This document shows positions 21,760-54,324 of a DNA stretch of 64,000 nucleotides, piece after piece. Made by a program: the position numbers and the translations under genes. The notes under the pieces are model-generated. The model was not told where the DNA came from, ran no database searches, and saw nothing but the letters and a program-made list of their open reading frames with translations. Source of the stretch: Segatella copri DSM 18205 (lineage in GTDB: Bacteria > Bacteroidota > Bacteroidia > Bacteroidales > Bacteroidaceae); contig NZ_CP102288.1 of NCBI RefSeq assembly GCF_025151535.1, positions 1,369,501 to 1,433,500 on the forward strand. Direction: 5' to 3'. Each line of letters opens with the position of its first letter. Within the stretch, counting starts at the first letter, position 1.

Positions 21760-21789
21760 CTGTTCCTATATCTTTTGTTTTATAAAACT

Positions 21790-23835
21790 CTACTCCACTC
21801 TTAACAAAGAGCTGTTTATATTCTTATTAACATCCTTCTCTACTTTTTGGGTCTTCCTGCCAAAGTCGAAGGAGTAAGCAACCTTGATGCTGGCATATTG
21901 CGAAGCCGTCTGGTCTTTGATGCTCTTACTGTAGCTGTAGATAGGCAAATCCAACCAATATTGCTTCTCCTGCTTTTTGAAAGGCGATACTGCCTGAAGT
22001 TCTACATAGAGGTTGCCCCTGCTGTAAGAACACGACATTCCATAGTCGATAGGAATCTTGTTTATCACCCAAGCAGCTTCATCTAAAGACTTCTTGCCAA
22101 AATGCAGGTAAGGCTTCAAGGCAAAATCACCCATGAACATATTCAACCCAAGATTACCCGTCAAATTGTTGTTATGCTTCGACCAGGTAGTCTTCACCTC
22201 CGCATGGTTATATCTGATATCTCCCGACAGATTGGCAAACTTACACAGTTTGTACTGCAAGGCGAGGATAGCAGAATAATATTGAGCATTTCCACCATTC
22301 GAGTAAGTCTTCACTATTTTCCTGTTTGCCTCATCCAGGTAATAATCATCAGTTACAGGATGATGATTGTAACGGAATTGTCCGATGGCAGAAATACTCA
22401 ACCTGTTGAAACGCCCCATATAATATAAATAGGTGTTGATGTCATGCGATTTCTTCAGTTCGGGCATTCCCTTTTCCATCATGTGGGAATTGACCTGAAT
22501 CATAGCCCGGTTGATGACATCCATACCATGATTGGAGTTCACAAAGTTGAATGACCACAAGAGCATTCCCTTATTCAGTTGGTATTGCACATTCGTATTG
22601 ATGCGAGGAGACAGCTGGCTAAAACTGTTGTCTCCATGCAGATGATATTGAAGCCAATCCAATCCGATGCGGTTTTTCAGACTCAAGCGCCTGCTAGCCT
22701 GGAAATTATAGGAGAAGAAAGCCAACGACTCCCCTTTCCAGAGATGCTGCCATAGTTCGCAATTGCCGGAATAATCAGCATTCCAGACATCGTGGTAATG
22801 AAACAGTTCCACAGATAAGGAATGCTTTTGAGAGAAATAATTATAGATGGCAGACAGCTGGAACGACAGCGCTTTCTCGTCTTCATCGGTCATTGCCTCG
22901 AAAGGCTGTTCCTGGTAAAGGCGGTGATAGGAGTTGGCAGAATACTTGCCATGTACTCCCAAGGTAAGCGTCTGATTCTTGCTTAATGGCAAGTTGGCGT
23001 TCAGGTCAATCTTAGGAGATAGACTCTTCTTCCTGATATTTGAGAAGATGTCCGTCTCTGTGCTTTCCTTCGCAAAACCAGAAGATGCATTTCTCGGAGT
23101 AGAGAGGTTGACGAGCGTAAACTTGCCCACCCAATATCTCTTTCCCTTCTGGTTCTGATAGCGGAACTGCATATATTCCTGATGATTCCGGTAAGAATTC
23201 TTACTATAGCTCTCCCTATCAAATAGGGATTGTGAAAACTGATAGTTCTCATTGTTCCAGGTCTCAGTACCATCCACATGACTATAGTTTGCACCAGCAA
23301 ACACAGTATAGGAATTGTTACCTTTTACATAATTGGTGGCAACGTTATAGTCGCCATGGTCATATCCCATCGCCTGCAGTCCGTCAGCCTGCACATATCC
23401 TCCATATCGGTATTGTTTGGTGATGAAGTTGACGACAAGCTTATCCTTGGCGTATTTTCCAGATGGAGCATCATGATATTCTATTTTCTCGATGTCACGA
23501 GGACGGAGCATCTGTATTTCCCGGATGTCGCATTCCTGCCCATTCAGATACAAGGCGGCTTGCAGTCCCATCACATCCACCTGATTCGATTTTGCATCGA
23601 TGATGAGTCCTGGGATATTCAGGTTTTCCAACACCCCGAATCCATTGACCGCATGTTTTCGTTGCTGGCTGTTGGGATAGATGACGAGATGATCACCCAC
23701 ACGACTGATATTGGAGGCTGATACCACCACATCATCCAAAGCTTTAGTAGAGACAATAGAGTCCTTCCCAGTGTTCTGAGCGAACACGGGCACAGCAGCC
23801 ATCAGCAGTCCAAAAGAGCAAAAAAACGTCTTCAT
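21790..23835 (-). CDS. Outer-membrane beta-barrel receptor
   Basis: 681 residues with a clear signal peptide (MKTFFCSFGLLMAAVPVFAQ). Plug-like segment: ALDDVVVSASNISRVGDHLV, GFGVLENLNIPGLIIDAKSN, ALYLNGQECDIREIQMLRPR, EYHDAPSGKYAKDKLVVNF. A long barrel follows, finishing in IKVAYSFDFG, then a lysine-rich tail. It belongs to the same broad family as its neighbours but is more divergent and lacks the GAGNEEKSRL-type tail. It is upstream of the receptor at 19639 in the same direction. Confidence 0.82.
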   Translation of the reverse strand: MKTFFCSFGLLMAAVPVFAQNTGKDSIVSTKALDDVVVSASNISRVGDHLVIYPNSQQRKHAVNGFGVLENLNIPGLIIDAKSNQVDVMGLQAALYLNGQECDIREIQMLRPRDIEKIEYHDAPSGKYAKDKLVVNFITKQYRYGGYVQADGLQAMGYDHGDYNVATNYVKGNNSYTVFAGANYSHVDGTETWNNENYQFSQSLFDRESYSKNSYRNHQEYMQFRYQNQKGKRYWVGKFTLVNLSTPRNASSGFAKESTETDIFSNIRKKSLSPKIDLNANLPLSKNQTLTLGVHGKYSANSYHRLYQEQPFEAMTDEDEKALSFQLSAIYNYFSQKHSLSVELFHYHDVWNADYSGNCELWQHLWKGESLAFFSYNFQASRRLSLKNRIGLDWLQYHLHGDNSFSQLSPRINTNVQYQLNKGMLLWSFNFVNSNHGMDVINRAMIQVNSHMMEKGMPELKKSHDINTYLYYMGRFNRLSISAIGQFRYNHHPVTDDYYLDEANRKIVKTYSNGGNAQYYSAILALQYKLCKFANLSGDIRYNHAEVKTTWSKHNNNLTGNLGLNMFMGDFALKPYLHFGKKSLDEAAWVINKIPIDYGMSCSYSRGNLYVELQAVSPFKKQEKQYWLDLPIYSYSKSIKDQTASQYASIKVAYSFDFGRKTQKVEKDVNKNINSSLLRVE

Positions 23836-24017
23836 TCTTACAATATGTTTTTATTTCATCATTATCTAGTACAAAAGTACACATTATTATCCAAAGCCAT
23901 TACATCTCTTCCGTTAAATTTGTATAACTGCATCAAATTACCAATTCCATCCAGTTCATCATCCCTCCTATCCTGAATGTATTCCCGTTTTTTGTTATAC
24001 ATCATCTCTTAAAAAAC

Positions 24018-24521
24018 CTAACTCATAGCATCCACCTCATGAACAGGACCTAGAATCGTACGACTTTCATCGTCATCATATTTCACTTTGCCTACATGCT
24101 TCCCATCTTCTTTCACCTCATAATCAGAATACGACATTCCTTCCCGATAGCACAGTCGGATGACGGAAGCTGCCTGGTCGGTCAGGTCATGGTCGATGCA
24201 ATCCACGGCAGCCTGCCATCGCTCTTCCAGACGAGAAGGTTCTTCCTCCGTCAATTTCTCTTCCGAGAGAGGGAGAAGCCGTTTCAGTCGTTCATCTCTC
24301 TTCTTTCTGGCTATAAGATTGATGCAGGCATTCTTCACGCTCCGCATCAGGTAAGTCCGGTCTGGAACCTGCTGTTTATCCCACAATCTGGAGAACACGT
24401 CGCTCACCACATCCCTCGCCTCCTCATTATCATGGAGCAAGGCAAAGGCGAAGCGATACATCTGCTCGTAATGGTCGTGGAACAGCCGTTCCATCCGCTG
24501 TTCATTTTCCTCTGTTATCAC
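24018..24521 (-). CDS. ECF sigma factor with region 4 replaced (chimeric or degenerate)
   Basis: 167 residues. Region 2 is normal (FHDHYEQMYRFAFALLHDNE, EARDVVSDVFSRLWD, YLMRSVKNACINLIARKK). Up to IRLCYREGMSYSD the chain aligns with ordinary Bacteroidota sigma factors, but where the helix-turn-helix should follow it continues as YEVKEDGKHVGKVKYDDDES then RTILGPVHEVDAMS, an acidic tail with no DNA-binding look. No alternative frame restores region 4. It probably cannot recognise a -35 element; it may be a pseudogene, a decoy, or a fusion. No anti-sigma gene follows; the next genes are receptors. Confidence 0.75.
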   Translation of the reverse strand: MITEENEQRMERLFHDHYEQMYRFAFALLHDNEEARDVVSDVFSRLWDKQQVPDRTYLMRSVKNACINLIARKKRDERLKRLLPLSEEKLTEEEPSRLEERWQAAVDCIDHDLTDQAASVIRLCYREGMSYSDYEVKEDGKHVGKVKYDDDESRTILGPVHEVDAMS

Positions 24522-24618
24522 GTCATTTTCTTCTTGTTTCTACTCTTATATACAAGCTTTCCTGAAATCAATTACCCCTAAAATGAAGAAATCTTCTACT
24601 TTTTTTGGAAAAGCAATG

Positions 24619-24626
24619 CAAAAGTA
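24619..24626 (-). promoter_or_regulatory. -7 box (TACTTTTG) of the unusual sigma gene
   Basis: The minus strand reads TACTTTTGCATTGC about 98 nt before the ATG at 24521; it is back to back with the DUF4160 promoter. Confidence 0.45.
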
Positions 24627-24659
24627 ATAAAAAGATTTGGAACATTCAATATTTTTTTT

Positions 24660-24667
24660 TATCTTTG
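24660..24667 (+). promoter_or_regulatory. -7 box (TATCTTTG) of the DUF4160/DUF2442 pair
   Basis: TATCTTTGCC lies 29 nt before the ATG at 24696, following a T-rich stretch. Confidence 0.65.
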
Positions 24668-24695
24668 CCAAAAAATAATAAAGATTATCATTGCC

Positions 24696-24914
24696 ATGTT
24701 TGGAGATGATCACAATCCTCCACATTTTCATGTGAGATATGGAGACTACGAAGCCATTATTACCATACAAGATGGAATCGTAAAAGGAGAATTGCCTAAA
24801 AAGGTACTTAAAGACGTATTCAAGTGGATGGAGATTCATCAAAACGAACTTGAAATGAATTGGAAGCGATTACAGGAAGGCAAGGAAATAATAAAAATTG
24901 AACCTCTTAAATAA
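24696..24914 (+). CDS. DUF4160 protein (putative toxin-antitoxin component)
   Basis: 72 residues. MFGDDHNPPHFHVRYGDYEA is the hallmark DUF4160 motif (D-x-x-P-H-x-H-x), and the rest (LPKKVLKDVFKWMEIHQNEL) is a helix that completes the domain. DUF4160 genes are almost always paired with DUF2442 genes and are regarded as toxin-antitoxin-like; the activity is not established. It sits 8 bp before its partner. Confidence 0.85.
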   Translation: MFGDDHNPPHFHVRYGDYEAIITIQDGIVKGELPKKVLKDVFKWMEIHQNELEMNWKRLQEGKEIIKIEPLK

Positions 24915-24922
24915 GTTGAATT

Positions 24923-25174
24923 ATGGTTGACATTGATTTAATAAGAATCGTTGATGTTGATTACATTAAGGATTATACCATGGACTTAAAGTTCAGTAAT
25001 GGCGAAACAAGACGCATTGACTTTCTCCCATTACTAAAAGGCAATAAGCGAGAAGAACTTAAAGACATGAATAAGTTTATTCAATTTGGACTTACCCATT
25101 GGACTTTGGAATGGTACAATGGAATTGATTTTGCCCCAGATTTCCTGTACAAACAAGGGAAAAAAGTGGCTTAA
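24923..25174 (+). CDS. DUF2442 protein (partner of DUF4160)
   Basis: 83 residues. The pattern IVDVDYIKDYTMDLKFSNGE, RRIDFLPLL, then WTLEWYNGIDFAPDFLY is the DUF2442 core (strand-turn-strand followed by the W-x-NGxD-x-xPD signature). It is encoded in the same transcript as DUF4160 and ends 9 bp before a hairpin shared with the receptor cassettes. Confidence 0.88.
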   Translation: MVDIDLIRIVDVDYIKDYTMDLKFSNGETRRIDFLPLLKGNKREELKDMNKFIQFGLTHWTLEWYNGIDFAPDFLYKQGKKVA

Positions 25175-25183
25175 TAAAAACAT

Positions 25184-25230
25184 CGGTCAAGCAAAGAGCA
25201 AACCAATATGGTTTTGCCTTCGCTTGACCG
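25184..25230. repeat. Receptor-cassette 3' hairpin, copy 1
   Basis: CGGTCAAGC pairs with GCTTGACCG, with an inner pair GCAAACC/GGTTTTGC. The same hairpin with nearly the same flanks recurs at 26336-26382 and 30062-30108, immediately downstream of two receptor genes. Here no receptor gene is left beside it. It can terminate the DUF2442 transcript. Confidence 0.85.
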
Positions 25231-25321
25231 ATTGTCATATATTCATTGTTTTAAGAGAGTTTCTTCCTGGAAAAAGCTACATGAAGCGATTATAATCTCA
25301 TAAAGAATCCGTGTAATCTCT

Positions 25322-25413
25322 CCCGATGTCCTTGAAATTACATGGCAACGCAGGAATATCTGTGTCGTGATGTAGGAAAGATTACGTCGCCATGTGGTAA
25401 AGTCTACATCGGG
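25322..25413. repeat. 92-bp nested palindrome
   Basis: The outer arms CCCGATGT/ACATCGGG (25322-25329 and 25406-25413) and inner arms ACATGGCAACG/CGTCGCCATGT (25340-25350 and 25385-25395, one mismatch) make a two-step stem around a 34-nt centre. It lies in the gap of the deleted receptor cassette. Confidence 0.6.
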
Positions 25414-25508
25414 ACGTAATTTTTGGGGGTATCTATAAGGTTTCATATCAGATTCTTTTTTGATTTAACATCGAGCTTATACGCACACGAAAAAGTATTT
25501 TCATATAC

Positions 25509-25609
25509 ATCAGTTTTTCTTTTTTCTGTTTCTTATTATCTATACAGTTGAGCCAAGCAAAAAACTAAGCAAAACATAGATTATTTTCGGAAAACCTATG
25601 CAAAGGTAA
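25509..25609 (-). promoter_or_regulatory. Receptor 5' leader/promoter module, orphan copy
   Basis: Nearly identical to 28983-29085 upstream of an intact receptor. It includes a -7 box TACCTTTG (25601-25608, minus strand) and the conserved leader core CTTGGCTCAACTGTATAGAT. It now drives nothing recognisable. Confidence 0.7.
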
Positions 25610-25650
25610 TAAAAAACTAGAAAAAAGCTTGCTCTTTCGAATAAAAAGTG

Positions 25651-25658
25651 TATCTTTG
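25651..25658 (+). promoter_or_regulatory. -7 box (TATCTTTG) of the MNT/HEPN pair
   Basis: TATCTTTGCACC lies 26 nt before the ATG at 25684. Confidence 0.65.
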
Positions 25659-25683
25659 CACCAAGAAACAACATCATTATATT

Positions 25684-25998
25684 ATGGGTAAACGAGATAT
25701 TATGGGTAAACGAGCCATCATAGAAGCTTTACGCCATTATTTCAGCACCCAACCCGTACAGAAAGCCTGGCTGTTCGGTTCTTTCTCCAGAGGGGAAGAA
25801 ACGAAGGATAGCGATGTCGATATTATGGTTTCTTTGGACAAGAGTAAACCTATAGGTTTAAAATTCTTCGGCATGTGGAGTGATTTGGAAGAACTCTTAG
25901 GTAGAAAAGTTGATTTGGTCTCAGAAGGAACCTTACTTCCTTTTGCACAGGAATCAGTAGAACGTGATAAAATCTTAGTATATGAGAGAACGAAGTAG
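25684..25998 (+). CDS. MNT-type nucleotidyltransferase (antitoxin of MNT/HEPN pair)
   Basis: 104 residues. The nucleotidyltransferase motif is complete: WLFGSFSRGEETKDSDVDIM (GSxxRG...SDxD). The first codons are an 18-nt tandem duplication (MGKRDI MGKRAI), so either ATG 25684 or 25702 may be used. MNT proteins neutralise HEPN ribonucleases, in several systems by adding AMP to them. The end overlaps the HEPN gene by 17 bp, typical of this module. Confidence 0.9.
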   Translation: MGKRDIMGKRAIIEALRHYFSTQPVQKAWLFGSFSRGEETKDSDVDIMVSLDKSKPIGLKFFGMWSDLEELLGRKVDLVSEGTLLPFAQESVERDKILVYERTK

Positions 25999-26329
25999 AG
26001 ATAAAAACCGCCTAGAGCACATGCTCCAGGCGATAGAAAGAATCTGCCGATATACAAAAGGTAAAAACTTTGAGGATTTTATCGCAGACGACATGATGTA
26101 TTACGCAGTAGTCAAGAACATCGAAATTCTTGGAGAAGCATCGAATATGCTAACTGAAGAATTTCGGCAAGCGCATCCTAAGACTCCTTGGAAACAAGTG
26201 AACGGCATGAGGAACTATAGCGTCCATGAATATTTCCAAGTTGATAACAACGTTGTTTGGGATGTGATTACAAACGACCTTCCGATATTAGAGCAACAAA
26301 TAAAGGAGTATCTAACTGAAGAAAAATAA
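25982..26329 (+). CDS. HEPN-domain toxin (HepT-like)
   Basis: 115 residues, all-helical. The catalytic RNase motif R-N-x-x-x-H is present as GMRNYSVHEYF near residue 77-87, preceded by YYAVVKNIEILGEASNMLTE, the family signature. HEPN toxins cut RNA and are silenced by the MNT partner encoded just upstream. The stop lies 7 bp before the 3' hairpin of the next receptor cassette. Confidence 0.92.
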   Translation: MRERSRDKNRLEHMLQAIERICRYTKGKNFEDFIADDMMYYAVVKNIEILGEASNMLTEEFRQAHPKTPWKQVNGMRNYSVHEYFQVDNNVVWDVITNDLPILEQQIKEYLTEEK

Positions 26330-26335
26330 AAACAT

Positions 26336-26382
26336 CGGTCAAGCAAAGAGCAAAACAATAAGGTTGTGCCTTCTCTTGACCG
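26336..26382. repeat. Receptor-cassette 3' hairpin, copy 2
   Basis: CGGTCAAG/CTTGACCG stem with the same surrounding words as copies 1 and 3. It sits between convergent HEPN and receptor genes and probably terminates both. Confidence 0.8.
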
Positions 26383-26430
26383 ATTGTCATATATTCATTG
26401 TTTATTAAGAGAGTTTCTTCCTAACAAGAA

Positions 26431-28980
26431 CTACAAGCGGCTCTTTTCTTCATTGCCGGCTCCTGTGCCCTTATACTTACTGCGCTTGGCATTGAAATTA
26501 TACGTAACCTGCAGGGAGATGCTACGAGTATAGTAGTAGCAGTCTTTTGTGGTACCCGCTCCCAGTCCGTACATCGTCCAACGTTCCTTTGTAGTCTTGA
26601 AGATGTCATTTGCAGAAAGATAAATGATCCATGTGCGATTGGCAAACGACTTGTCGAACCGCAGATCGACGCTGTAATTACTCTTCATCATAAGAAATCC
26701 ATCTGCATTGGGGGTTGCTGCATTCAGGCTGATAGCCGCGTTCATGGTTTCTGAAAGAGCGAAATTATTGTCGAGCAAGCACAACAGCAAAGGTCTGCTT
26801 AATGCCTTGCTGGCACCATACTTCTTGGTATCGAAGAACTGCTGTTTATAATAGAATCCCCACCTAGGACGAAAGATGCCAAGCTTTGGCGAAACATTGA
26901 CAGAAGCATAAAGCAGATGCTTATGGTTGAAATTCAACGACGTACTATAAGCAAATTCCTTTCCAGGATAGATATACTTGGTCCACTCTATCACATCCTT
27001 CAGATATTTATAACCTGCGGAAACATTCAGCCACTTATATGTCATCATTGCCTCAACATTGAACACCTTCTCCGGTTGCAAGGTAGGATTTCCGCCTTCA
27101 TAAAGGAAACGGTTGTCAAACTGCATGAAGTTGCCTAACTGTCGATAACTTGGACGATTTATTTTCTCGTTGACATTCAACTGCCAATTCCAGTTACCTT
27201 TGTTCCATGATAAGCTGAGGTTAGGAAAGAAGTTGCTGTATCTTCTGCTCACATCATCCTGCTTGACTCCACCAGAGAAATAGTCGCGAATGATATTCTC
27301 GTAACGCACACCAAGACCAATGGTCCACTTGCTGAGGGGCAGTTCATATTGTGCAAAGCCAGCAACATTTCTTTCATGGATATCCGTCTCTGTGGATGGC
27401 ACCAACTGCTCTTCATTCAGGAACGTTCCATGAGAGTCGGTCTTCGACAGCTCTGTTCCTAAAGAAACATTTCCTTTCCACAGAGGAATATTCACAACCA
27501 ACTTGCCTGCCCACATATCGCTATTCTGACGATTGCTTGAATGTACCTCCTGATTGCCCAACTCCTTGCTGCTTTCAATACTCTCGTCACTACGTCTGTT
27601 ATTGACCGTATAGTATGTGGCATTGAAATCGATACCTACCTGTCCTATCTTTCCCACATAATAAATTTCTGCCTCATGTGAACCAAGGTGAGGCTTTGCA
27701 ACCTTATTCTGCCCAATGCTACCCTGTGCCACACCATTCAGAAATACATCCTGTTGGCTAGCACTATTCGTCCTGCCATTCAACATGCCATAGTAGCGAT
27801 AAGAGCCACCAATGGAATTGCTGTCGTTGAGCGAATAGTCGGCTGAGAGTTTTTCCGACAAGAAGCGGTTATTGGTATCCGAATTAAAATGCTGGTCGTT
27901 GTGATAATGCTTGTCGGGCAAATTGATATCGGTGTTCAGAAGATTATCCTCACCAAAATGAGAGTCCCCCGTCCATAAGCTATTGGCTATCTCAAATTTC
28001 TTGGTCTGATACCGGGTGCTGACAAGCTCGTAATCCGACATCCATTTGTTGTATTTACCAAAAGCATCTGCACGCAAGCTGAACCCATTGGCACGCCGCT
28101 CTTTGGTGCGGATACGAATTACCGATTCTACCTCGGCATCATATTCTGCTCCAGGACTTGTTATCACCGAAATCGACTTGATGTTGTCGGGAGTGATGTT
28201 TACAATCTCATTATTGTCATTCACACGCTTGTTGTTGATATAAACAATCGGTGTGCCTTTTCCACACACGGATATCTTTTGTCCAGCTACAGAGACACGT
28301 GGCAACAGGTTCAGGACATCAAAAGTGTTTGCCATCTTAGAAAGCAAGGTATGCTCTACGGCAACCTCCACTCCTCCAGGCGACATTTTATACTGAGGTC
28401 TTTCACCCTTCACTACAACTCCCTTGATAATCATCGTTTCGGGCTGCAATTTGATGATTCCCATTTCCGGATTGCTGTATATACGGCTGATAGTCTTATA
28501 ACCAACGTATGTGATACGGGCTAACACCTTCCGGGAATTACAAGGAATGACAAAACTTCCATTCTCATTACTCACACCATGTCCTACGATCGTAGAATCA
28601 ATGGGCGACAACAAGGTTATATTTGCATATTCGGCAGCATTTCCACTCTCATCTATAATACGTCCCTTATAACGAAGTGTTGTCTTCTGCATACACTCTA
28701 CCATGATATTATCCTCCATCTGCGTCATCCTGATGGGATAGAATCCTATCAGTTGTATGATGGCATCGGGAACACTCTGGTTTCTGATGCTCTTGGTTAC
28801 CCTGAAATCCTCCAACTCATCATACACGAAGTTGATGGTGTACTTATGCTGGCGGGCATTCAAATCCTTCAACGCCGCAGAGAACGACACATTATTATAT
28901 TGTCGGGTGATGCGCTGGGCTAATGCGGTTTGAAAAACAGCCACACAAGCACAAATCATAATCCATTTTTTCATATACAT
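26431..28980 (-). CDS. STN-domain outer-membrane receptor, intact (cassette B)
   Basis: 849 residues. Signal peptide (KKWIMICACVAVFQTALAQ), then an STN domain (RITRQYNNVSFSAALKDLNA to about residue 90) as used to signal through FecR-like proteins, a carboxypeptidase-regulatory-like beta-sandwich (RIIDESGNAAEYANITLLSP), a plug (LPRVSVAGQKISVCGKGTPI, VITSPGAEYDAEVESVIRIR) and a large barrel ending TYNFNAKRSKYKGTGAGNEE then KSRL. Its STN part is almost identical to that of the disrupted receptor at 34360, while plug and barrel differ strongly. It carries its own copy of the 5' leader. Ligand unknown. Confidence 0.9.
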   Translation of the reverse strand: MYMKKWIMICACVAVFQTALAQRITRQYNNVSFSAALKDLNARQHKYTINFVYDELEDFRVTKSIRNQSVPDAIIQLIGFYPIRMTQMEDNIMVECMQKTTLRYKGRIIDESGNAAEYANITLLSPIDSTIVGHGVSNENGSFVIPCNSRKVLARITYVGYKTISRIYSNPEMGIIKLQPETMIIKGVVVKGERPQYKMSPGGVEVAVEHTLLSKMANTFDVLNLLPRVSVAGQKISVCGKGTPIVYINNKRVNDNNEIVNITPDNIKSISVITSPGAEYDAEVESVIRIRTKERRANGFSLRADAFGKYNKWMSDYELVSTRYQTKKFEIANSLWTGDSHFGEDNLLNTDINLPDKHYHNDQHFNSDTNNRFLSEKLSADYSLNDSNSIGGSYRYYGMLNGRTNSASQQDVFLNGVAQGSIGQNKVAKPHLGSHEAEIYYVGKIGQVGIDFNATYYTVNNRRSDESIESSKELGNQEVHSSNRQNSDMWAGKLVVNIPLWKGNVSLGTELSKTDSHGTFLNEEQLVPSTETDIHERNVAGFAQYELPLSKWTIGLGVRYENIIRDYFSGGVKQDDVSRRYSNFFPNLSLSWNKGNWNWQLNVNEKINRPSYRQLGNFMQFDNRFLYEGGNPTLQPEKVFNVEAMMTYKWLNVSAGYKYLKDVIEWTKYIYPGKEFAYSTSLNFNHKHLLYASVNVSPKLGIFRPRWGFYYKQQFFDTKKYGASKALSRPLLLCLLDNNFALSETMNAAISLNAATPNADGFLMMKSNYSVDLRFDKSFANRTWIIYLSANDIFKTTKERWTMYGLGAGTTKDCYYYTRSISLQVTYNFNAKRSKYKGTGAGNEEKSRL

Positions 28981-28982
28981 CT

Positions 28983-29085
28983 GTCTTTCTTTTTTCTGTT
29001 TCTTATTATCTATACAGTTGAGCCAAGCGAAAAACTAAGCAAAACATAGATTATTTTCGAAAAACCTATGCAAAGGTAATAAAAA
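28983..29085 (-). promoter_or_regulatory. Receptor 5' leader/promoter module, active copy
   Basis: The minus strand carries TACCTTTG (29071-29078) about 91 nt before the receptor ATG, followed by a leader whose core GTTTTGCTTAGTTTTTCGCT then TGGCTCAACTGTATAGATA is repeated upstream of the ECF sigma gene (35559-35607) and in the orphan copy (25509-25609). The core may be an ECF-sigma promoter or a shared leader RNA. Confidence 0.6.
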
Positions 29086-29104
29086 GAAGATATTGGCTAC
29101 GAAA

Positions 29105-29133
29105 AAGCCCCGATGCGTCACGCACCAGGGCTT
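29105..29133 (-). terminator. Terminator of the hicAB operon
   Basis: AAGCCC pairs with GGGCTT, and inside them GCGT with its complement; read on the minus strand the stem ends in a run of T. It lies about 58 bp after the hicB stop. Confidence 0.75.
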
Positions 29134-29190
29134 CGAGCTCTTTTTACAATAAAAATGAAACAATCATCTTTGCTAGAAAGAGACTGCTCT

Positions 29191-29616
29191 TTAAACGTAC
29201 TGTAGAACTGGCTTATCTATCAAGAGTCCAGTATCTATATCTTCCTTGATCTTTGCAATGCCTTGGCGAATTTTCTCCAGACTCTTGCCTTGCGGCGACT
29301 TGATGCCAGCCGCATACTGTCGCAAAAGAGAAGCGTTCATACCGATATATTTGGCAAACGCCGAGATGCTGAGCGGATAGTAGTTGAAGAATGCCCCTAC
29401 ATCGAAGACGAAGTGAAACTCCAAGTCTGGATATTCCTTGCCCTCCTCCTCGTAGAACTCCCTCATCTCCTTATCTGCTATAAGAAAATCCTCCATGGCA
29501 GCCTTTGCGGTCTTGCCATCACCGATGAGACCAAACGTCAGGTCATCGGTCCCAGTCATAAAGCAAGAATATAAATCCTTGCCAGACTCCACAACAACGG
29601 TAACTTTCCTTGCCAT
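29191..29616 (-). CDS. hicB: HicB-like antitoxin
   Basis: 141 residues. The N-terminal half is the HicB pseudo-RNase-H fold (VVVESGKDLYSCFMTGTDDL, GLIGDGKTAKAAMEDFLIAD). The C-terminal half is a helix-turn-helix (LSISAFAKYIGMNASLLRQY, AAGIKSPQGKSLEKIRQGI) that would bind its own promoter. It follows hicA in the same direction, the classical hicA-hicB order. Confidence 0.88.
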   Translation of the reverse strand: MARKVTVVVESGKDLYSCFMTGTDDLTFGLIGDGKTAKAAMEDFLIADKEMREFYEEEGKEYPDLEFHFVFDVGAFFNYYPLSISAFAKYIGMNASLLRQYAAGIKSPQGKSLEKIRQGIAKIKEDIDTGLLIDKPVLQYV

Positions 29617-29693
29617 ATCTTCATATTATTATAAGTTCATATCCAAAAGTGTTCTTCTCGCATACCAAGATTCTCATGGAAGAAGAACCTGGG

Positions 29694-29876
29694 CTAAAGC
29701 CCAAGTTCTTGATAGATAGATTTGAGAGTGCCTTGCGGCACCTCTCCAGTTCCATGCCGAGGAACGACTGCGCTCTTCCCATTGGCAGGGTTGGACCAGA
29801 TGTCGTGTCGGCCTCCATGACGAAGTAGAAAGCACCCCGCTTTCTTTAACTTCCGATACAGCTCGCTGTATTTCAT
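29694..29876 (-). CDS. hicA: HicA-like toxin
   Basis: 60 residues from the ATG at 29876 (the frame extends upstream without family similarity). KYSELYRKLKKAGCFLLRHG then GRHDIWSNPANGKSAVVPRH contains the catalytic histidine of HicA (GGRHDIW) within its double-stranded-RNA-binding fold. HicA cuts mRNA and is blocked by HicB. The promoter box at 29921-29928 lies 45 nt upstream. Confidence 0.92.
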   Translation of the reverse strand: MKYSELYRKLKKAGCFLLRHGGRHDIWSNPANGKSAVVPRHGTGEVPQGTLKSIYQELGL

Positions 29877-29920
29877 AATCTTAGTACGTTTAAAGAACAC
29901 TTTGTCCTCATTGGACGATG

Positions 29921-29928
29921 CAAAGGTA
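29921..29928 (-). promoter_or_regulatory. -7 box (TACCTTTG) of hicAB
   Basis: The minus strand reads TACCTTTGCATCG 45 nt before the hicA ATG. Confidence 0.65.
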
Positions 29929-30061
29929 ACAATAAAGTTATTTACCGCCAAACATTTCGGTAACTATTTTGTTACGTTAACTGAGATTTAACATTTGTGC
30001 GAACAAACTCCTGGAATGTTAGAAACAATCAATAAGATGATAGAAGAATTATAAAAAACAT

Positions 30062-30108
30062 CGGTCAAGCAAAGAGCAAACCAATATGGTTTTGCCTTCG
30101 CTTGACCG
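30062..30108. repeat. Receptor-cassette 3' hairpin, copy 3
   Basis: Identical in stem and loop to copy 1 (CGGTCAAGC/GCTTGACCG); it lies 49 bp downstream of the disrupted receptor and probably terminates it. Confidence 0.85.
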
Positions 30109-30156
30109 ATTGTCATATATTCATTGTTTATTAAGAGAGTTTCTTCCTAACAAGAA

Positions 30157-31615
30157 CTACAAGCGGCTCTTTTCTTCATTACCGGCTCCTGTGCCTTTGT
30201 ACTTGCTGTTAACAGAGTTGAAACGATAGCTTATAGTTAGCTTAACAGCTTGCGAATCGCTATAGTTCCATTTATCGAGCAACATACTTGTACCATAGGT
30301 AAACATAGAGTTACGGGCTGTACGAAAGACATCCGTTGCCTGAAATTGAAAAGTCCATTGTTTAAACTTCTTTGTTATTCCCAAATTCAACTGAAAACTC
30401 GGCTTCAGGGTTGCTATCGTATTATCACCAGAAGTATGCCCTATCATATCAGCCGTCAGTATATAACCTCTTGAAATAGAGAAAGAATTAAACCAATTGG
30501 TCATCAACAACGGATTGTTCAACTTGAGCATTTGCCCATAATGAACCATTTCAAAATTCTGTCCCATCAATACCAAAGACAAGCGAGGAGACCAAATCCC
30601 TATACTTGGCGACAATGATAGAACTGCCGTATATGTATTCATGTGGGAACGATTGACATTCGTTAGAATGTTGAGCGGTTTACCTTCACCCGGCTGCAAA
30701 TCTATCGTATTCACTATGAAGTCATTGATATGTTGAAAACTGAAATTTAAATATACCCATTTGTATAATCCTGCGAAGGTTATGTCATGGATAATTTCAG
30801 GCTTCAGAAGAGGATTTCCCTTTTCATAAGTGAAGACGTCATCATATTGCATATTGCTGCTCAATTCCTGATAAGACGGACGACGAGTCTTCATCGTATA
30901 ATCCAACGAGAAATTGGCTTTGCCTATCGGAAATGATAAACTTGCATTCGGAAACAATTTATCATACCGACGACTTTGTCCATCAATCCAGATTCCTTTC
31001 TCATAATAATCAGAAACGGTATGTTCATACCTCAGACCTGCTTCTAAATCAATTTTTCCCAATGGAAGATAATAGGTCAAGAATCCAGCCAACTTATTTT
31101 CCCTGATATGGTCATCTGTAGAAGCTATTATCTGTTCCACATTGTTGTAAGTTTCCTTGCGGTCTGTATAGATAAACTCACCACCACCTTCTAACTTTCC
31201 TTTCCCAACAGGATAAGACAGCGCCAATTTAGAAGCAGCCATTACATTGTCCGCCTTGTTTGTGCTGTTAACATTACTTTCACCAGAAGCACTACTCTGC
31301 TCCTTAATATTCTGCACAGCCTTGTTCTGGCTAACAACCAAGTCATTATCAAAAACGACATTCCATTTTCCGAATTCTCCCCGATAATAAGCATTCACAT
31401 AATGAGCAGGAGGCGTCTTGCGATCCCATTTCATATCATAGGATATGGATTCCAACTCTGTCCCATTCTTCATTACACGTTGATATGTAGGCCATGAAGC
31501 AGTACTATTTGGTAAAAAGTTTACATTATAAGTAGCACCTATGGAATGTTTCTCATTGAAGACATAATTGAAACCTATCTTTGTGGCAATTTGTGCTTTG
31601 CTTTTGGGGAATATC
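30157..31615 (-). pseudogene. STN receptor, cassette C: C-terminal part, cut off by an IS
   Basis: The barrel half of a receptor. In frame it begins at the target duplication (GIFPKSKAQIATKIGFNYVF) and ends SYRFNSVNSKYKGTGAGNEE then KSRL, the same tail as cassette B. Removing the IS and one copy of the 8-bp duplication joins it in frame to 33223-34360, giving an 862-residue receptor. As it stands, the part lacks a signal peptide, STN and plug domain and cannot be exported. Confidence 0.92.
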
Positions 31616-31655
31616 GGCTCAGGTGCGGAAGTCCGTGGATAGCCCAGCAGGCATG

Positions 31656-32732
31656 TTAACCGAAGATCATCATACGGTACATGAAGAAAGTCAAGTCTGC
31701 TACTCCTCTCACCTGCGCCCGAAATCCCTTCATCTTTGAGTTGAGAGATTCTGCAGAAGCATTGGTTGAACGATTGTTGAAGTAATTCAATACATACTCC
31801 TCCTTCTCCTTTATAGTGTCACGTACTGCGATTAGCTCTCTGATGTGGCTTCTGCCTATATTCTTGTACCACGCATGTAATGCCTTCTTGGCCTTCTTGC
31901 GGCTCTGCTTCTTCTTGAAGATGTTTCTCAATGCGCAGACCAAACCATAGCCGGTCTTGATTCGGTTATCCAGTTCGAAGAGAATCTTCATGCCTTTCTT
32001 CTGCCAGTCCGTCCAGTCATTGCCGCTCTTGAGCAGAGGGTAGCGTACATGAGTCAACAGTTCCACCTTAGTCTCACCATTGGCAAGTATCTCTGGCTGA
32101 AACTTCTCATTCTTGCGCTTTCGCGGCCTTCCAAGGGTTTTGCCGTTCTTGCTCTTCTTTGGTTTGTGGTTCTTCGCATAGTATGCCCTCGCCTTGCGTC
32201 TTGCCTGCACAAGTTTCTTGAACTTGCTTTCCTGCATATTCCTCTCCGTGACGGCAGCACGCTTGAGTTTCATGCGCATCTCCTCAAGACCTTTGCCTGC
32301 AAGCTGCATGATATGAAAGCAGTCTATGACAATCTCCGCATTGGGGAATACCTGCTTGATGATGCCCATCATGCTGTCGGAGAAATCCATCGTGACTTCC
32401 TTCACTGCAAGACGTTTCTCTTCCGGTATAGCCATGAGTCGCATTGCCACTTCTGCAATGGTAGTCCCCTTGACAGCTGCGATGAGCGTACCACGCTTAC
32501 CATGGCCTTCCTTGTTGGAGAGGAATGTAAAGAGGTCATTGTGCAGCATACTCTCATCTATGCTTAGGTGCGTGCCCATATTCTGGGCGAAGAGCACCCA
32601 CTCTGCGGCATGATCCTTCTGGTCCCAGTCTTCAAAGTCACTCAGGTGCTCCTTGTAGACACGGTTCAGGTACTTACCGTCAGTCTGGAAGAATCGCGCC
32701 ACGCATTGGGCCGTCACTGGGTAGGTATCCAA
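31656..32732 (-). CDS. ISL3-type transposase, catalytic part (orfB)
   Basis: 358 residues. DDE core: THLSIDESMLHNDLFTFLSN, VTMDFSDSMMGIIKQVFPNA, VIDCFHIMQLAGKGLEEMRM; a late acid in NRSTNASAESLNSKMKGFRA. A lysine/arginine-rich insert (RKARAYYAKNHKPKKSKNGK) lies near 185-210. The frame is open back to a TAA in the T6A4 tract shared with the other ISL3 element, so a +1 frameshift could join it to orfA. Confidence 0.9.
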   Translation of the reverse strand: MDTYPVTAQCVARFFQTDGKYLNRVYKEHLSDFEDWDQKDHAAEWVLFAQNMGTHLSIDESMLHNDLFTFLSNKEGHGKRGTLIAAVKGTTIAEVAMRLMAIPEEKRLAVKEVTMDFSDSMMGIIKQVFPNAEIVIDCFHIMQLAGKGLEEMRMKLKRAAVTERNMQESKFKKLVQARRKARAYYAKNHKPKKSKNGKTLGRPRKRKNEKFQPEILANGETKVELLTHVRYPLLKSGNDWTDWQKKGMKILFELDNRIKTGYGLVCALRNIFKKKQSRKKAKKALHAWYKNIGRSHIRELIAVRDTIKEKEEYVLNYFNNRSTNASAESLNSKMKGFRAQVRGVADLTFFMYRMMIFG

Positions 32733-33120
32733 CCATTTCTTTTAAAAAAGCAGCGAACTCAATTGAGTAGCTGGTGCCGTCTGCAATAAGTGCAGGAGTA
32801 TCTAACAGTTGGTTCTTCCCATCCTCCGTAAGCCATCTGCGACGGCGCACATGAAGGGCAACCTTGTGCTCACGCACAGGGAAGTCATTGAACACCCGGG
32901 GCTCAGTAAAGCCATTCGGCTTCAAATCATGCCACATATCATCGCGCAGGTCACGTTCGTCAAGATAGATATGAAGAATGCGGATTTCCGTATTCGTCTC
33001 ATCGTATAGACCAGTGCACTCTTCATCGACATTGGTAACTTCAAAGGTGTCAAGCATCCCTTTTGGAAGCATGTAGCGTACGAGTATCTCGTAGTCAAAT
33101 TGGGTAGTCTTCTTTGCCAT
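32680..33120 (-). CDS. ISL3-type transposase N-terminal region (orfA)
   Basis: 146 residues. It contains FTEPRVFNDFPVREHKVALH then VRRRRWLTEDGKN, homologous to orfA of the element at 18059. The ATG lies 4 nt after a TACCTTTG box (33125-33132, minus strand), so the transcript is nearly leaderless. Confidence 0.88.
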   Translation of the reverse strand: MAKKTTQFDYEILVRYMLPKGMLDTFEVTNVDEECTGLYDETNTEIRILHIYLDERDLRDDMWHDLKPNGFTEPRVFNDFPVREHKVALHVRRRRWLTEDGKNQLLDTPALIADGTSYSIEFAAFLKEMVGYLPSDGPMRGAILPD

Positions 33121-33124
33121 GATG

Positions 33125-33132
33125 CAAAGGTA
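33125..33132 (-). promoter_or_regulatory. -7 box (TACCTTTG) of the ISL3 copy B transposase
   Basis: The minus strand reads TACCTTTGCATCATGG, placing the box just before the orfA start codon. Confidence 0.6.
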
Positions 33133-33222
33133 CTACTTTTTATTGGAAAACATGTACCGTGCGATGATAATCTTTTGGTTTACATGTCTGCTGGGCTATC
33201 CACGGACTTCCGCACCTGAGCC

Positions 33223-34360
33223 GGAATATCCCGATGTCGCTATGCATTTGCCACATTTCTCCATCTTTAATGACAGTCTTTTTATCTATCTGATGCTGAT
33301 ACCTTTGCGTCAAATCATAATAAAGACTTCCGAATATATCCAATCCTCCTCTACGCCAGTTTAAATTACCGCCCTCAGACAAAGATGTAGAATGTCCCTG
33401 CCGGGCCATAGAAGTAAACCCACCGCTCAGTCCATCACCTTGTTTCTTATTCGTTCTGATCACAATGACAGCCTTTACCGTAGCATCATATTTTGCTCCA
33501 GGATTGTTGTTGAGAGTTACGGAGGCGATGTCTTTGGAACTTATTCTATCCAGTTCCCCCTCATCCGTCAACTTCCTTCCATTCACATATACCAATGCTT
33601 CACCCTTGCCATAAACACGGTATTTTCCATCACTGCCATAAACACTCGGCACTTGCGCCATAACATCGTTGGCAGTACCAGCTTCGCTCAAAGGTGTTCC
33701 TTTCACCTGAGTAACAAGTCCTTCATTCGTCATCTCAAAGGTTTTACGATGTCCTTTTACAACCACCTTCTGCAGGTTCATTGTTGCCTCTTTCAGAGTT
33801 ATTGTCCCTATCTTACCTATATTAAAGGTATTGCTTGTCGTAATATAGCCCACACAACTTACTCTTACTATCGCCTTTTTGGCTCCACAGGGAATCACGA
33901 ACTGGCCGTTCTCATTCGTCACGCCGCCATTTATCAATGAAGAGTCACGAACATTCAGCAGGGCTACATTGGCGAAATCTATAGGGCGATGATGCGTATC
34001 TACAATACGGCCTATCATCTTGGTGGGAGTCTTCTGCGTACACTCCACCATGATATTATCCTCCACCTGCGTCATCCTGATGGGATAGAATCCTATCAGT
34101 TGCATGATGGCATCGGGAACACTCTGGTTTCTGATGCTCTTGGTCACCCTGAAATCCTCCAGTTCATCATACACGAAGTTGATGGTGTACTTATGCTGGT
34201 GGGCGTTCAAATCCTTCAACGCCGCAGAGAACGACACATTATTATATTGTCGGGTGATGCGCTGGGCATAAGACTGCTGAACCCCAAACAGCAGGAAGAG
34301 AAGAAGAAGCTCTCTGACAGGCTTGCCGCTAACGGGCATTGGTTTCCAAAAATCTCTCAT
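33223..34360 (-). pseudogene. STN receptor, cassette C: N-terminal part, cut off by an IS
   Basis: Signal peptide (LLLLFLLFGVQQSYAQ), then STN (RITRQYNNVSFSAALKDLNA, almost identical to cassette B), the beta-sandwich (IVDTHHRPIDFANVALLNVR) and plug (VPSVYGSDGKYRVYGKGEAL, LNNNPGAKYDATVKAVIVIR). The reading frame enters the IS after GIF and stops inside it. It starts 18 bp after the anti-sigma gene, so sigma, anti-sigma and receptor formed one operon before the insertion. A truncated STN-plug protein could still be secreted and might still contact the anti-sigma factor. Confidence 0.92.
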
Positions 34361-34377
34361 AAATATATCCTCCTATC

Positions 34378-35085
34378 TTATTTCACCATCAATGTTCCGT
34401 CAATATACTCTATCTGTATGCGGTCGAAAGCATTCAAAATCTCCAGGTTCTGCTCCAAAGTCTTCGTCTTGTTCCAGTTGAAGAAGAGACGTATGTGCTG
34501 GGCACCGGCATCCACATACTCCACCTTGACATGATAGAAACCGGATAACTGAGCCAGGATGGTTCCCAATTCAGCATCATCAAACACCACCGGCTTCATA
34601 CCAAGCGAATCCTTGTTCTCTGCTGTTGCAGCACGAAGACTGTCATTCGTCAGCGCCTGGGTTGTTGCCAGCTGTTCTGTCGCAGCCTTGTTATCCGCTG
34701 TCTGATCAGAAGCCGGGAACCCCAACCAGCCATTGTGAATCGCAGCCAAGGCTACCCCCGAAAGGAAGATGATGCCAACGATGGATGCAGCAATCTTCAT
34801 CCGGTTGCGATAAACGTTCTTGGATTTGCCGGCATCCATCGCCATCTTATCCTCGTGATGTGCCTGAACAAATTCCTTCCAAGCCCCATCCACATCCACC
34901 TCCTTCGGATTGGCTTTCTTGCCAGCCATTCTCGCCATCGCCAGTTCATGGAAGAACTCCTTCACTTCCTCATCGGCAAGCAGGTGCTCCACCTGCTCGT
35001 CGGTATATTTCTCGGGATGCTCCTGCATGCCAAAGAGCATCATCCGCTTTTCTTCTTTACTCATGTTTGTCATTGTCTTGCTCAT
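34378..35085 (-). CDS. FecR-like anti-sigma factor with DUF4974-type C-terminus
   Basis: 235 residues. The cytoplasmic N-terminus (1-100) ends at one transmembrane helix (IAASIVGIIFLSGVALAAI, about 107-125). The periplasmic end (VVFDDAELGTILAQLSGFYH, VKVEYV, LEILNAFDRIQIEYIDGTLM) is the DUF4974/STN-like fold that contacts receptor STN domains. The start overlaps the sigma stop by 4 bp (35082-35085). The middle FecR domain is short or absent, so it is smaller than typical FecR proteins. It should hold the sigma factor until a receptor signals. Confidence 0.88.
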   Translation of the reverse strand: MSKTMTNMSKEEKRMMLFGMQEHPEKYTDEQVEHLLADEEVKEFFHELAMARMAGKKANPKEVDVDGAWKEFVQAHHEDKMAMDAGKSKNVYRNRMKIAASIVGIIFLSGVALAAIHNGWLGFPASDQTADNKAATEQLATTQALTNDSLRAATAENKDSLGMKPVVFDDAELGTILAQLSGFYHVKVEYVDAGAQHIRLFFNWNKTKTLEQNLEILNAFDRIQIEYIDGTLMVK

Positions 35086-35561
35086 TTAAATTGTTCCTTA
35101 ATCCAGTCCATCGCCTTCGAGAGATGGTTGAATACCGTCACCTTGCTCACTCCCACTTCATCAGCCACCTCCTGATAAGATTTCTCCTGAAGATAGCGCA
35201 GACGGAAAATAAGTTGCCGGATAGGCGGTTCCAGGTCTTCGATGAGAAGCAGCAGCCGGTCGAGCCGTTCATCGGTCTCTTCTGAGAGAATCACGTCGGA
35301 ATCATCCAGCAGCAGCTTCGCCACCCTTTCCTTCACGCTCTTATGAGCTATCAGGTTGAGACAGCGGTTGCGTACGCTCCGCATCAAGTAACCATCCTCA
35401 CTCCCAGGCACCAGAACCACATCATCGGCAAGAATCTGGGCGAATACTTCACTCACCACATCCTTGCTCTCGTCATCATCCGAAAGAATGCATCTGGCCA
35501 GATTGTACATCTTCACATAATGCTGACGGAATAACTGTTCTATGTCCTTTTTTCTGTTCAT
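35082..35561 (-). CDS. ECF RNA polymerase sigma factor (FecI-like), intact
   Basis: 159 residues with normal regions: region 2 (HYVKMYNLARCILSDDDESK, DVVSEVFAQIL, YLMRSVRNRCLNLIAHKS) and region 4 (FRLRYLQEKSYQEVADEVGV, SKVTVFNHLSKAMDWIKEQF) with a complete helix-turn-helix. First gene of the sigma/anti-sigma/receptor operon. The core motif upstream of its ATG is shared with the receptor leader at 28983-29085, which suggests common or self regulation. Confidence 0.94.
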   Translation of the reverse strand: MNRKKDIEQLFRQHYVKMYNLARCILSDDDESKDVVSEVFAQILADDVVLVPGSEDGYLMRSVRNRCLNLIAHKSVKERVAKLLLDDSDVILSEETDERLDRLLLLIEDLEPPIRQLIFRLRYLQEKSYQEVADEVGVSKVTVFNHLSKAMDWIKEQFK

Positions 35562-35607
35562 ATACTATCTATACAGTTGAGCCAAGCGAAAAACTAAGCA
35601 AAACATC
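35559..35607 (-). promoter_or_regulatory. Shared motif upstream of the ECF sigma gene
   Basis: Read on the minus strand: ATGTTTTGCTTAGTTTTTCG then CTTGGCTCAACTGTATAGAT, identical over about 40 bp to the receptor leader copies. It lies directly before the sigma start codon, downstream of the housekeeping box TACTTTTG at 35672-35679. Confidence 0.6.
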
Positions 35608-35671
35608 AACTTTTTTGTTTTTTCCTTTAAATCCGAACCGAAATCACCAAGAATCTCCCCAGTTTGGAATG

Positions 35672-48142: not shown

Positions 48143-49372
48143 TTATCCGAATCCAGTTTTGAAGGGTTTTGCATAAGCTCGGTTCTCTGTGTAGATATTC
48201 AGCACGTATTGCCTTGCAGTCATGATCCACTTGGCAGGTACGGAGATGAATCTGAAGACAAAAGCCTTTATGCGACTCGTTTTCTTGAGCCCAAAAGCCT
48301 TGGTGTCAAGCCTGCTCATGATGGTCTTGTAGAAATTGTGTATCAATGCAGTAAGCAGAAGAAAGACAGTATTCTCCGCCATGAATGACTTGGGGAGCCT
48401 GCTCCAACCGAATCCGTTGTTCATGTCGTCAAAGATACGTTCCTTGCCGCCACGCAGATTGTAGAATTCAACAATGTCCCTTGTCGATGACTTGTAATCG
48501 TTGGTCAGAATACAACGGTAAGTGTATTCGCCTTCCCACAGGTCAAGGTCGCCACTGTTGCGTCTTTGTCTCTGGATGACAAGACGATAGCACTTGCCTT
48601 CCCATTTCTCAACGAGAATGGAATTGAGTTCGAACTGGATGCCGTTAATCTCCTCCGTCTTCCATCCTCTCAGAGCAAAGATGTCATTGTAGAGCGAACT
48701 GCATCGGTTGGCACGGATGTAGAAATGTTTGCAATGCTTCTCTATCTCACTGACGATTTCCTTCGAGCAGGAACCGCAGTCTGCCCTGAAGCGATTTACA
48801 CGGATGTTCTGGGATTCCAGAAGAGCGAAGAATCTCTTATGGGTGTCTGCCTGATGAAAACGCACATTCGTGTTGCCATCGCTGTTCTCGATATAGACTA
48901 TCTTGTCACCGATAACATATACGCCAGGCCTGTAGCCGAGGAACTTTTTGTAGGTCGGTTTTGCATCATACTTCTCCGTTTCAAGAAACTGATGGTCAAA
49001 GTCAACATCGTATTCCTCAATTTCCTTCAACTCGCCTGTAGAAACCAAAGCGTTTATAAGCAATGTGTTGAGTTTGTCTGCAGTATTGAAATCATAGGTC
49101 TTGCCTTGGTCGGAAGTATAGGAGATGTTTTCCTGTGTCAGTTCCTTGATGGCTCTGAGGATGGTATCAGAGCTGCATGTACGAAGGGTAGGATGATACG
49201 AGAGATGGCGCATCAGTTGTGACGTTACGTCTTCCACGCATGAGCCGCCACAGAAATAAACGCTCATCAGCGAACGGACTATCTCGCTGAACTGATATCC
49301 GATGATACTGCGGCATCTCTGACCCAGTGTTGAGTCGATAACGGGTGAAAGCATGGAGTCAAATTTCTCCAT
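48143..49372 (-). CDS. IS1380-family transposase (copy 1)
   Basis: 409 residues. Start MEKFDSMLSPVIDSTLGQRC; DDE core includes YDVDFDHQFLETEKYDAKPT, RADCGSCSKEIVSEIEKHCK and NLRGGKERIFDDMNNGFGWS, the typical IS1380 end motif (YNxRGxxE/K). The enzyme seems intact. The three copies in the window differ at only a few residues. Confidence 0.95.
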   Translation of the reverse strand: MEKFDSMLSPVIDSTLGQRCRSIIGYQFSEIVRSLMSVYFCGGSCVEDVTSQLMRHLSYHPTLRTCSSDTILRAIKELTQENISYTSDQGKTYDFNTADKLNTLLINALVSTGELKEIEEYDVDFDHQFLETEKYDAKPTYKKFLGYRPGVYVIGDKIVYIENSDGNTNVRFHQADTHKRFFALLESQNIRVNRFRADCGSCSKEIVSEIEKHCKHFYIRANRCSSLYNDIFALRGWKTEEINGIQFELNSILVEKWEGKCYRLVIQRQRRNSGDLDLWEGEYTYRCILTNDYKSSTRDIVEFYNLRGGKERIFDDMNNGFGWSRLPKSFMAENTVFLLLTALIHNFYKTIMSRLDTKAFGLKKTSRIKAFVFRFISVPAKWIMTARQYVLNIYTENRAYAKPFKTGFG

Positions 49373-53902: not shown

Positions 53903-54082
53903 ATGGACGCAAAAGAAAAAGTATTAGCAACAATGAAAGAGGCAGGTCAGCCTCTTAACGCAGGTAAAATCGCAGAACTCAGCGGTCTCGACCGCAAAGA
54001 GGTAGATGCAGCCATGAAGCAGCTGAAGGCAGAGGGCGCAATCGTCTCTCCTGTTCGTTGCAAATGGGCACCTGCAGAGTAA
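53903..54082 (+). CDS. Small winged-helix (MarR-like) regulator
   Basis: 59 residues ([20 protein letters not shown], then [20 protein letters not shown], ending VRCKWAPAE). This is a compact winged helix: helix-helix-turn-helix ([20 protein letters not shown]) plus a short wing. It comes 27 bp after the hydrolase gene and probably controls this small redox operon. A hairpin follows 16 bp later. Confidence 0.85.
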
Positions 54083-54097
54083 AAACTTTAATGGCTT

Positions 54098-54131
54098 GGT
54101 ACTGCGGTCTTGAATAACAGGCTGCAGTACC
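54098..54131 (+). terminator. Hairpin after the redox operon
   Basis: GGTACTGC pairs with GCAGTACC across an 18-nt loop, followed by TTCCTTTCC. Confidence 0.6.
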
Positions 54132-54316: not shown

Positions 54317-54324
54317 TACCTTTG
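54317..54324 (+). promoter_or_regulatory. -7 box (TACCTTTG) upstream of the AlbA-type pseudogene
   Basis: TACCTTTGCACCG lies 67 nt before the ATG at 54391. Confidence 0.6.

Follow-up and report, generated by a model that had tools for sequence, protein, structure and literature searches.

Which parts of a signalling receptor stay fixed, and which can be replaced, when several receptors depend on one regulator? This question is raised by a locus of Segatella copri DSM 18205, whose 3.33-Mb genome is held on one contig and which was analysed here in a stretch of 64,000 nucleotides (NZ_CP102288.1, positions 1,369,501 to 1,433,500; the window). The locus places TonB-dependent receptor genes with nearly identical ends and dissimilar bodies behind one extracytoplasmic function (ECF) sigma factor and its anti-sigma factor. 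The alignments make it likely that this is an array of cell-surface-signalling receptors with interchangeable bodies, which were exchanged at the shared ends. Along the minus strand, the order is ECF sigma, FecR-like anti-sigma, a slot-1 receptor broken by an insertion sequence (IS), cassette B, the emptied cassette A and a broken second sigma gene (sigma2), and beyond sigma2 lie two more open reading frames (ORFs; 23835-19639), one with a receptor-type barrel. The features are as follows.

35563..35616, minus: promoter-like leader of the sigma operon, motif TTGCTTAGTTTTT-N-AACTGTAT, core-to-ATG gap 7 nt
35082..35561, minus: ECF sigma factor (Pfam Sigma70_r2 and r4_2; NCBIfam sigma70-ECF above cut-off)
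34378..35085, minus: FecR-like anti-sigma factor (Pfam FecR_C above cut-off)
33231..34360, minus: slot-1 receptor, 5' part (signal peptide, STN signalling domain, CarboxypepD-like domain, plug)
31616..33222, no strand assigned: insertion sequence breaking the slot-1 receptor (ISL3-type transposase; GGAATATC on each side)
30157..31615, minus: slot-1 receptor, 3' part (C-type barrel and tail)
30054..30156, minus: slot-1 3' hairpin (repeat comparison)
29191..29951, minus: spacer with a HicA-type gene (29694-29951) and a partner ORF (29191-29616) without Pfam match
28968..29085, minus: cassette B leader with promoter motif (repeat comparison, motif search)
26431..28980, minus: receptor B, intact, 849 aa (signal peptide, STN, CarboxypepD-like domain, plug, barrel, tail)
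26328..26430, minus: cassette B 3' hairpin (repeat comparison)
25648..26329, plus: spacer with a nucleotidyltransferase (MNT) and HepT-like (HEPN) pair (Pfam scan)
25498..25615, minus: leader remnant of the lost cassette A, promoter motif retained (repeat comparison)
25176..25281, minus: 3' hairpin remnant of the lost cassette A (repeat comparison)
24696..25174, plus: spacer with DUF4160 and DUF2442 genes (Pfam scan)
24018..24521, minus: broken sigma2 gene, sigma region 2 alone recognised

Shared ends and the promoter-like motif

The initial annotation had described a shared 3' hairpin, leader, STN and tail around differing bodies, and all of these lie where it placed them. The hairpin with the adjoining 3' end is found at 26328-26482 and 30054-30208 (95%) and again at 25176-25281 (90%, query positions 48-155); elsewhere in the genome, at E<=0.001, only two opposite-strand readings of the same palindromes were returned, the next match having E=0.45. 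The leader at 28968-29085 recurs at 25498-25615 (97%) and at 35563-35616 (91% over 54 nt), and outside the window at two sites of the genome (86-87%, E<=1e-11), besides shorter and weaker matches. The two STN stretches (28682-28920 and 34029-34267) are 96% identical in DNA, and the final 15 residues, KYKGTGAGNEEKSRL, are identical in both window receptors, whereas the barrels share only 31.3% of 435 aligned residues. In the structure model, this tail (KYKGTGAGNxEKxRL; window 26431-26475 and 30157-30201) follows the last barrel strand, and it is conserved across the barrel family. The annotated fates of the cassettes, one lost, one intact and one cut by an IS, also hold, the transposase being Pfam DDE_Tnp_ISL3 and the 8-bp repeats GGAATATC lying at 31608-31615 and 33223-33230. 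Likewise, only one sigma/anti-sigma pair is intact, as the second sigma ORF (24521-24018) matches sigma region 2 only. The anti-sigma and receptor of sigma2 are missing from the window, whereas S. copri Indica and iA622 carry a full sigma2/anti-sigma2/receptor operon there; the window's rad-SAM gene is 98.0% identical in DNA to that of Indica and 98.7% to that of iA622.

Three STN classes can be told apart: class I goes with this sigma, class II with sigma2 and class III with a third sigma system (Indica C18:40716-44461). TTTTGCTTAGTTTTT-CGCTTGGCTC-AACTGTATAG is common to both leaders, A and B, and to the stretch ahead of sigma, with at most one difference. The exact gapped motif TTGCTTAGTTTTT-N-AACTGTAT occurs five times in the own genome, five times in Indica and twice in iA622; four further genomes hold 1, 0, 1 and 1 copies, the 0 being Leyella An906, which has a copy with altered letters, and the reversed motif, used as control, gave 0 matches in all seven. 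All five own-genome copies belong to this sigma system or to a related one: ahead of sigma, ahead of B, in remnant A, ahead of a distant receptor (G000:C1:1283120-1285672), which is a further member of the array set outside the window and an addition to the initial annotation, and ahead of a decayed sigma gene at 1471174. Genes with a class I STN (>=81%) number 3 in the own genome, 5 in Indica and 2 in iA622; motifs and genes thus match one to one in Indica and iA622, and the two surplus motifs of the own genome are the two remnants. The motif is absent from the promoters of sigma2 and the third sigma (16-18 of 35 in the four rows compared). In these genomes, STN class is paired with promoter type, and this sigma presumably reads the motif.

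Ten relatives other than S. copri, chosen among those with a sigma match, were checked for the pre-sigma motif (Leyella An906, Prevotella sp. 885, L. stercorea DSM 18206, G185, L005, L006, L007, L008, L011 and L012). TGCTTAG precedes sigma in 10/10 and AACTGTAT in 8/10, and the core ends 7-10 nt ahead of the start; in the seven other than An906, Prevotella 885 and DSM 18206, the sigma DNA is 65.6-70.0% identical over the matched part. The orphan copy at G000:C1:1471174-1471204 (minus; L042) is followed by 28 residues of the decayed sigma gene; in Indica, a second class I sigma/anti-sigma system is intact (C18:17186-18366).

Identity of the receptors

The receptors have the plug and barrel of TonB-dependent transporters, and the ECF sigma and FecR-like anti-sigma genes adjoin them. 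The Pfam STN profile misses these receptors and matches only one other place in the own genome; a structure model was therefore used to test the fold, and in it the N-terminal domain takes the FpvA/FecA-type signalling fold. Judged by these features, the locus is a cell-surface-signalling receptor array with several TonB-dependent receptors per ECF sigma/anti-sigma pair, and ligand-driven signalling is predicted. The SusC/RagA family was considered and rejected, as receptor B gave no match to NCBIfam OMP_RagA_SusC at 0.01 and the database protein P0158 scored 37.8 bits against a cut-off of 368.25. Receptor B has no match among solved-structure sequences at 0.01 or in the phage collection, nor have leader plus STN in the plasmid collection. 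The barrel shows likeness to transporters of siderophores, haem, B12, copper and zinc alike, and family searches of the receptors and of a 767-aa partner protein named no ligand, nor did a scan of the cut part of a 520-aa partner; the bodies presumably differ in ligand.

Bodies in different slots and strains

The body in the leader slot of the window, that of B, lies directly behind sigma in Indica, iA622 and Leyella stercorea. Against slot 1, nucleotides 61-2550 of B are 96.5% identical in Indica, 94.8% in iA622 and 94.2% in L. stercorea An906, while nucleotides 1-299 of B match the three leader-slot receptors found in Indica and iA622 (95.7-96.3%). The C-type body, broken in slot 1 of the window, is whole in P0158 (99% over the queried part; a cluster of 2421 members), where it follows a signal peptide of the same type. 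Peptides and bodies were tallied over 312 sequences (17 from loci, 295 from the database), all gathered because they resembled the queries. In 110 of them, the S. copri slot-1 peptide stands ahead of a B body; it precedes a C body in P0158 and an S2a-type body in P0136, P0169 and P0127. The leader peptide precedes a B body in 12 and a D or E body in 3, and the distant-locus peptide precedes B once, in P0078. In these comparisons the signal peptide marks the slot and the body does not.

The arrays differ likewise in composition. Indica has slot 1 (B), two leader cassettes (E and D), genes for the 767-aa and 520-aa partners and two tandem sigma2 operons. In iA622, slot 1 likewise holds B, and the array further comprises the 767-aa gene, a single leader cassette (D), the 520-aa gene and a single sigma2 operon. 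The initial annotation had named two results as refuting its proposal, ends no more alike than the barrels and a fixed content across strains; the comparison with Indica and iA622 gave neither, as the ends stay alike while cassette number and body type vary. The 767-aa ORF has a receptor-type barrel without an STN match, and the 520-aa ORF is lipoprotein-like by eye; they follow the cassettes in Indica and iA622 (L037:13493-15796 and, cut, L037:19091-20000; G300:C27:48205-50508 and 54048-55610) and do not occur in the window array. Of 398 genomes of the genus, two hold the rad-SAM flank at E<=1e-100, the own one and Indica; evidence at the population level therefore comes from the protein database.

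Could all bodies have come from other strains or species by allelic replacement, with no exchange among the members of one array? We hold this to be less probable than exchange that includes array members. The C-type barrel is rare, being found at E<=1e-120 in 4 of 398 genus genomes including the own, with the other three only 44-49% identical, and a body has passed between Leyella and Segatella (below), both as expected of an outside source. Against it stands the position of the B body, which lies directly behind sigma in Indica and iA622 but in the leader slot in the window; this requires at least one non-allelic step, a step that incoming DNA could have taken too.

Bodies behind different regulators

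The anti-sigma of sigma2 is only 30% identical to that of the window, and one body type is found in the database behind all three STN classes. The STN of P0158 is 97% identical to that of I_r1 with bodies at 34%, and the relation is reversed against P0181 (56% STN, 85% body), P0179 (55%, 85%) and P0180 (49%, 80%). Compared with s2a, the fragment P0136 gives 57% and 96% and P0169 gives 56% and 90%, while s2a and s2b give 100% and 42%. The joints of these chimeras are sharp and lie at the STN end (about residue 100-120) or ahead of the plug (about 160-190), and in P0078 in the second half of the STN. Among 120 C-barrel proteins listed, with no picking of rows, 16 have an STN (10 class I, 4 class II, 2 class III); the other 104 lack one by the motif used, some being fragments. 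In a quick tree of 36 bodies picked from 314 rows, STN class needs 9 changes, whereas the STN tree needs 2; grouping class II in a single clade is rejected (p-AU 1.6e-5). The sequences themselves show the shared motif, the STN-like fold, the pairing of STN class with promoter and the exchange of bodies at sharp joints.

Tandem duplication followed by divergence, with selection holding STN and tail alike and no exchange, seems very improbable. It is contradicted by the chimeras, in which the same body stands behind different STN classes and different signal peptides; moreover, the STN copies are alike at synonymous sites too, and the non-coding leader and hairpin are 95-97% alike. In its favour, the tail motif is conserved as protein throughout the family, and the two sigma2 operons of Indica are tandem duplicates, 92.5% identical over 2006 nt up to about receptor nt 527, after which they are unlike until the final 85 nt (90.6%).

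Several observations weigh against body exchange at shared ends. Labels shuffled on the body tree gave a mean of 10.2 changes and as few as 9 in 32 of 200 trials, and because of four long branches the tree is in part uncertain. Between the own genome and Indica, the distant receptor has not changed (97%). Two class II receptors (Indica s2b and iA622 s2) have no hairpin behind them; in Leyella the hairpin loop differs, and a hairpin also stands behind partner genes. The r2 receptor of Indica is without the common tail. Since the tail is conserved family-wide at the protein level, it need not have been retained for recombination. The arrays seen in context are few (the window, Indica, iA622, one Leyella and parts of others), the database rows are cluster representatives gathered by query likeness and not frequencies, P0078 and some others are single sequences, and P0136 is a fragment of 488 aa.

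Age of the exchange

Between An906 and the window, the sigma genes show 0.39 synonymous differences per site and the bodies 0.124, and the STN has 21 synonymous changes over 46 sites; identity climbs from 82-89% to 92-100% about 450 nt past the STN start. Since the Leyella sigma is far more diverged than the receptor body, the body crossed after the sigma genes had split. Between the window and Indica, synonymous divergence per site is 0.038 for sigma and 0.061 for anti-sigma. Within the window, 5 synonymous changes over about 46 sites separate the two STN copies, and between window and Indica the slot-1 STNs are 4 changes apart over 47 sites; as copies within the window have diverged like those between strains, the figures fit exchange on the scale of strain divergence and not rapid flipping. 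Body exchange looks about as old as the strains' divergence.

These figures bear on the proposal of a receptor-switching locus, of which the constant ends with differing bodies, the variation between strains and the STN going with one promoter type are supported, and switching as such is not. Active switching within a strain would mean frequent cassette recombination and varied slot-1 bodies among cells, as in phase or antigenic variation. Tandem direct repeats with near-identical ends, a cassette emptied between its two ends and a body that differs by slot and strain would suit it. We consider it unlikely, as in-genome STN copies are as diverged as between-strain ones and deletion between direct repeats would be irreversible. 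In addition, the cassettes lie on a single strand, and the IS ends are the only inverted repeats of at least 30 nt in 18000-42000, for which reason a DNA-inversion shufflon was also rejected. Slot 1 is not the sole expression site: B and remnant A retain their own promoter motif, so that a move to slot 1 is unnecessary for expression. Conversion from silent cassettes of the pilE/pilS type was rejected too, cassette B being complete with the motif ahead of its start codon. Among 17 scanned ORFs of 19639-35561, which are not every ORF of that region, no recombinase was found besides the IS transposase; past the array end of iA622, an integrase-like ORF was noted by eye.

Proposed mechanism and relation to known systems

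Under the exchange of bodies that we favour, one ECF sigma/anti-sigma pair would serve several TonB-dependent receptors. Each receptor gene would keep three elements unchanged, namely its own copy of the promoter read by the regulator, the signal peptide typical of its slot and an STN of the regulator's class, with the class I STN probably contacting this anti-sigma. The body (mostly CarboxypepD-like domain, plug and barrel) would be replaced en bloc by homologous recombination, presumably of the RecA type, with one joint in the STN or the pre-plug linker and the other in the 3' tail or hairpin. Bodies have moved among slots, regulators and species. Because STN and promoter stay put, an incoming body would plug straight into the existing signal path and be induced together with the other receptors.

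The FecA/FecR/FecI, FpvA/FpvR and PupB/PupR/PupI systems resemble the window in having an ECF sigma, a FecR-like anti-sigma and a TonB-dependent receptor with an N-terminal signalling domain. According to the available portions of the reports, laboratory PupBA chimeras showed that signalling domain and barrel are independent (Koster 1994; PMC9249621, PMC11429574). The window array differs in its tandem receptors, which share one regulator and promoter, and in swaps between regulators that occur naturally; they are apparently the counterpart of the laboratory domain swaps. In Bacteroides fragilis, the ragA/susC intergenic shufflon is a Bacteroidales locus with alternative outer-membrane receptor genes, in which, as its accessible text describes, DNA inverts between inverted repeats behind an invertible promoter (PMC5729914). 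The window, in contrast, has direct repeats, one strand, a promoter motif per cassette and receptors below the SusC/RagA cut-off. The fpvA types of the Pseudomonas pyoverdine receptor are, in the excerpts available, alternatives at a signalling locus, spread over clonal complexes and possibly under bacteriocin pressure (PMC2777410, PMC11444679); tandem cassettes and exchange between sigma systems are not described in those excerpts. The titles and abstract openings of open-licence literature gave no account of this locus or of natural STN/body exchange between regulators. Cell-surface signalling is a known kind of system; here it takes the form of an array with natural modular exchange.

The independence of modules seen in the laboratory would thereby gain a natural counterpart in an abundant human gut genus, and the promoter motif permits the receptor set of one sigma factor to be read from a genome. 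The array also suggests a route by which gut bacteria could alter uptake, or the entry of phages or bacteriocins, without regulatory rewiring.

Spacer modules and other observations

Each of the three window spacers carries a two-gene module (DUF4160/DUF2442, MNT/HEPN, and HicA with its partner), which the initial annotation had not included. We take the partner ORF at 29191-29616 to be HicB from its position, and the DUF4160/DUF2442 genes to be toxin-antitoxin-like. The iA622 spacer (G300:C27:50581-51235) holds another MNT/HEPN pair. Indica carries this spacer type twice (97.9% over 468 nt, 96.6% over 442 nt), at G042:C18:55871-56275 and 65342-65746, duplicated along with the cassettes and with HEPN down to 33 of 125 residues, and next to slot 1 the window still has 112 aligned nt of this spacer, including the hairpin. 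A wider proposal, which we regard as rather doubtful, is that the bodies form a common pool circulating among at least three sigma/anti-sigma systems and among genera, that the arrays serve these bodies as landing platforms, with promoter-STN and tail-hairpin ends held alike to that end, and that the toxin-antitoxin-like pairs block collapse between direct repeats; that the spacer pairs guard the array is only an idea.

Elsewhere in the window, a GTPase (58990-60909) and an acetyltransferase (49580-50215) were recognised by eye, presumably resembling a ribosomal-protection tetracycline gene and CAT, respectively. Three near-identical transposase-like ORFs of 409 aa each were likewise seen by eye at 48143-49372, 50865-52094 and 57428-58657.

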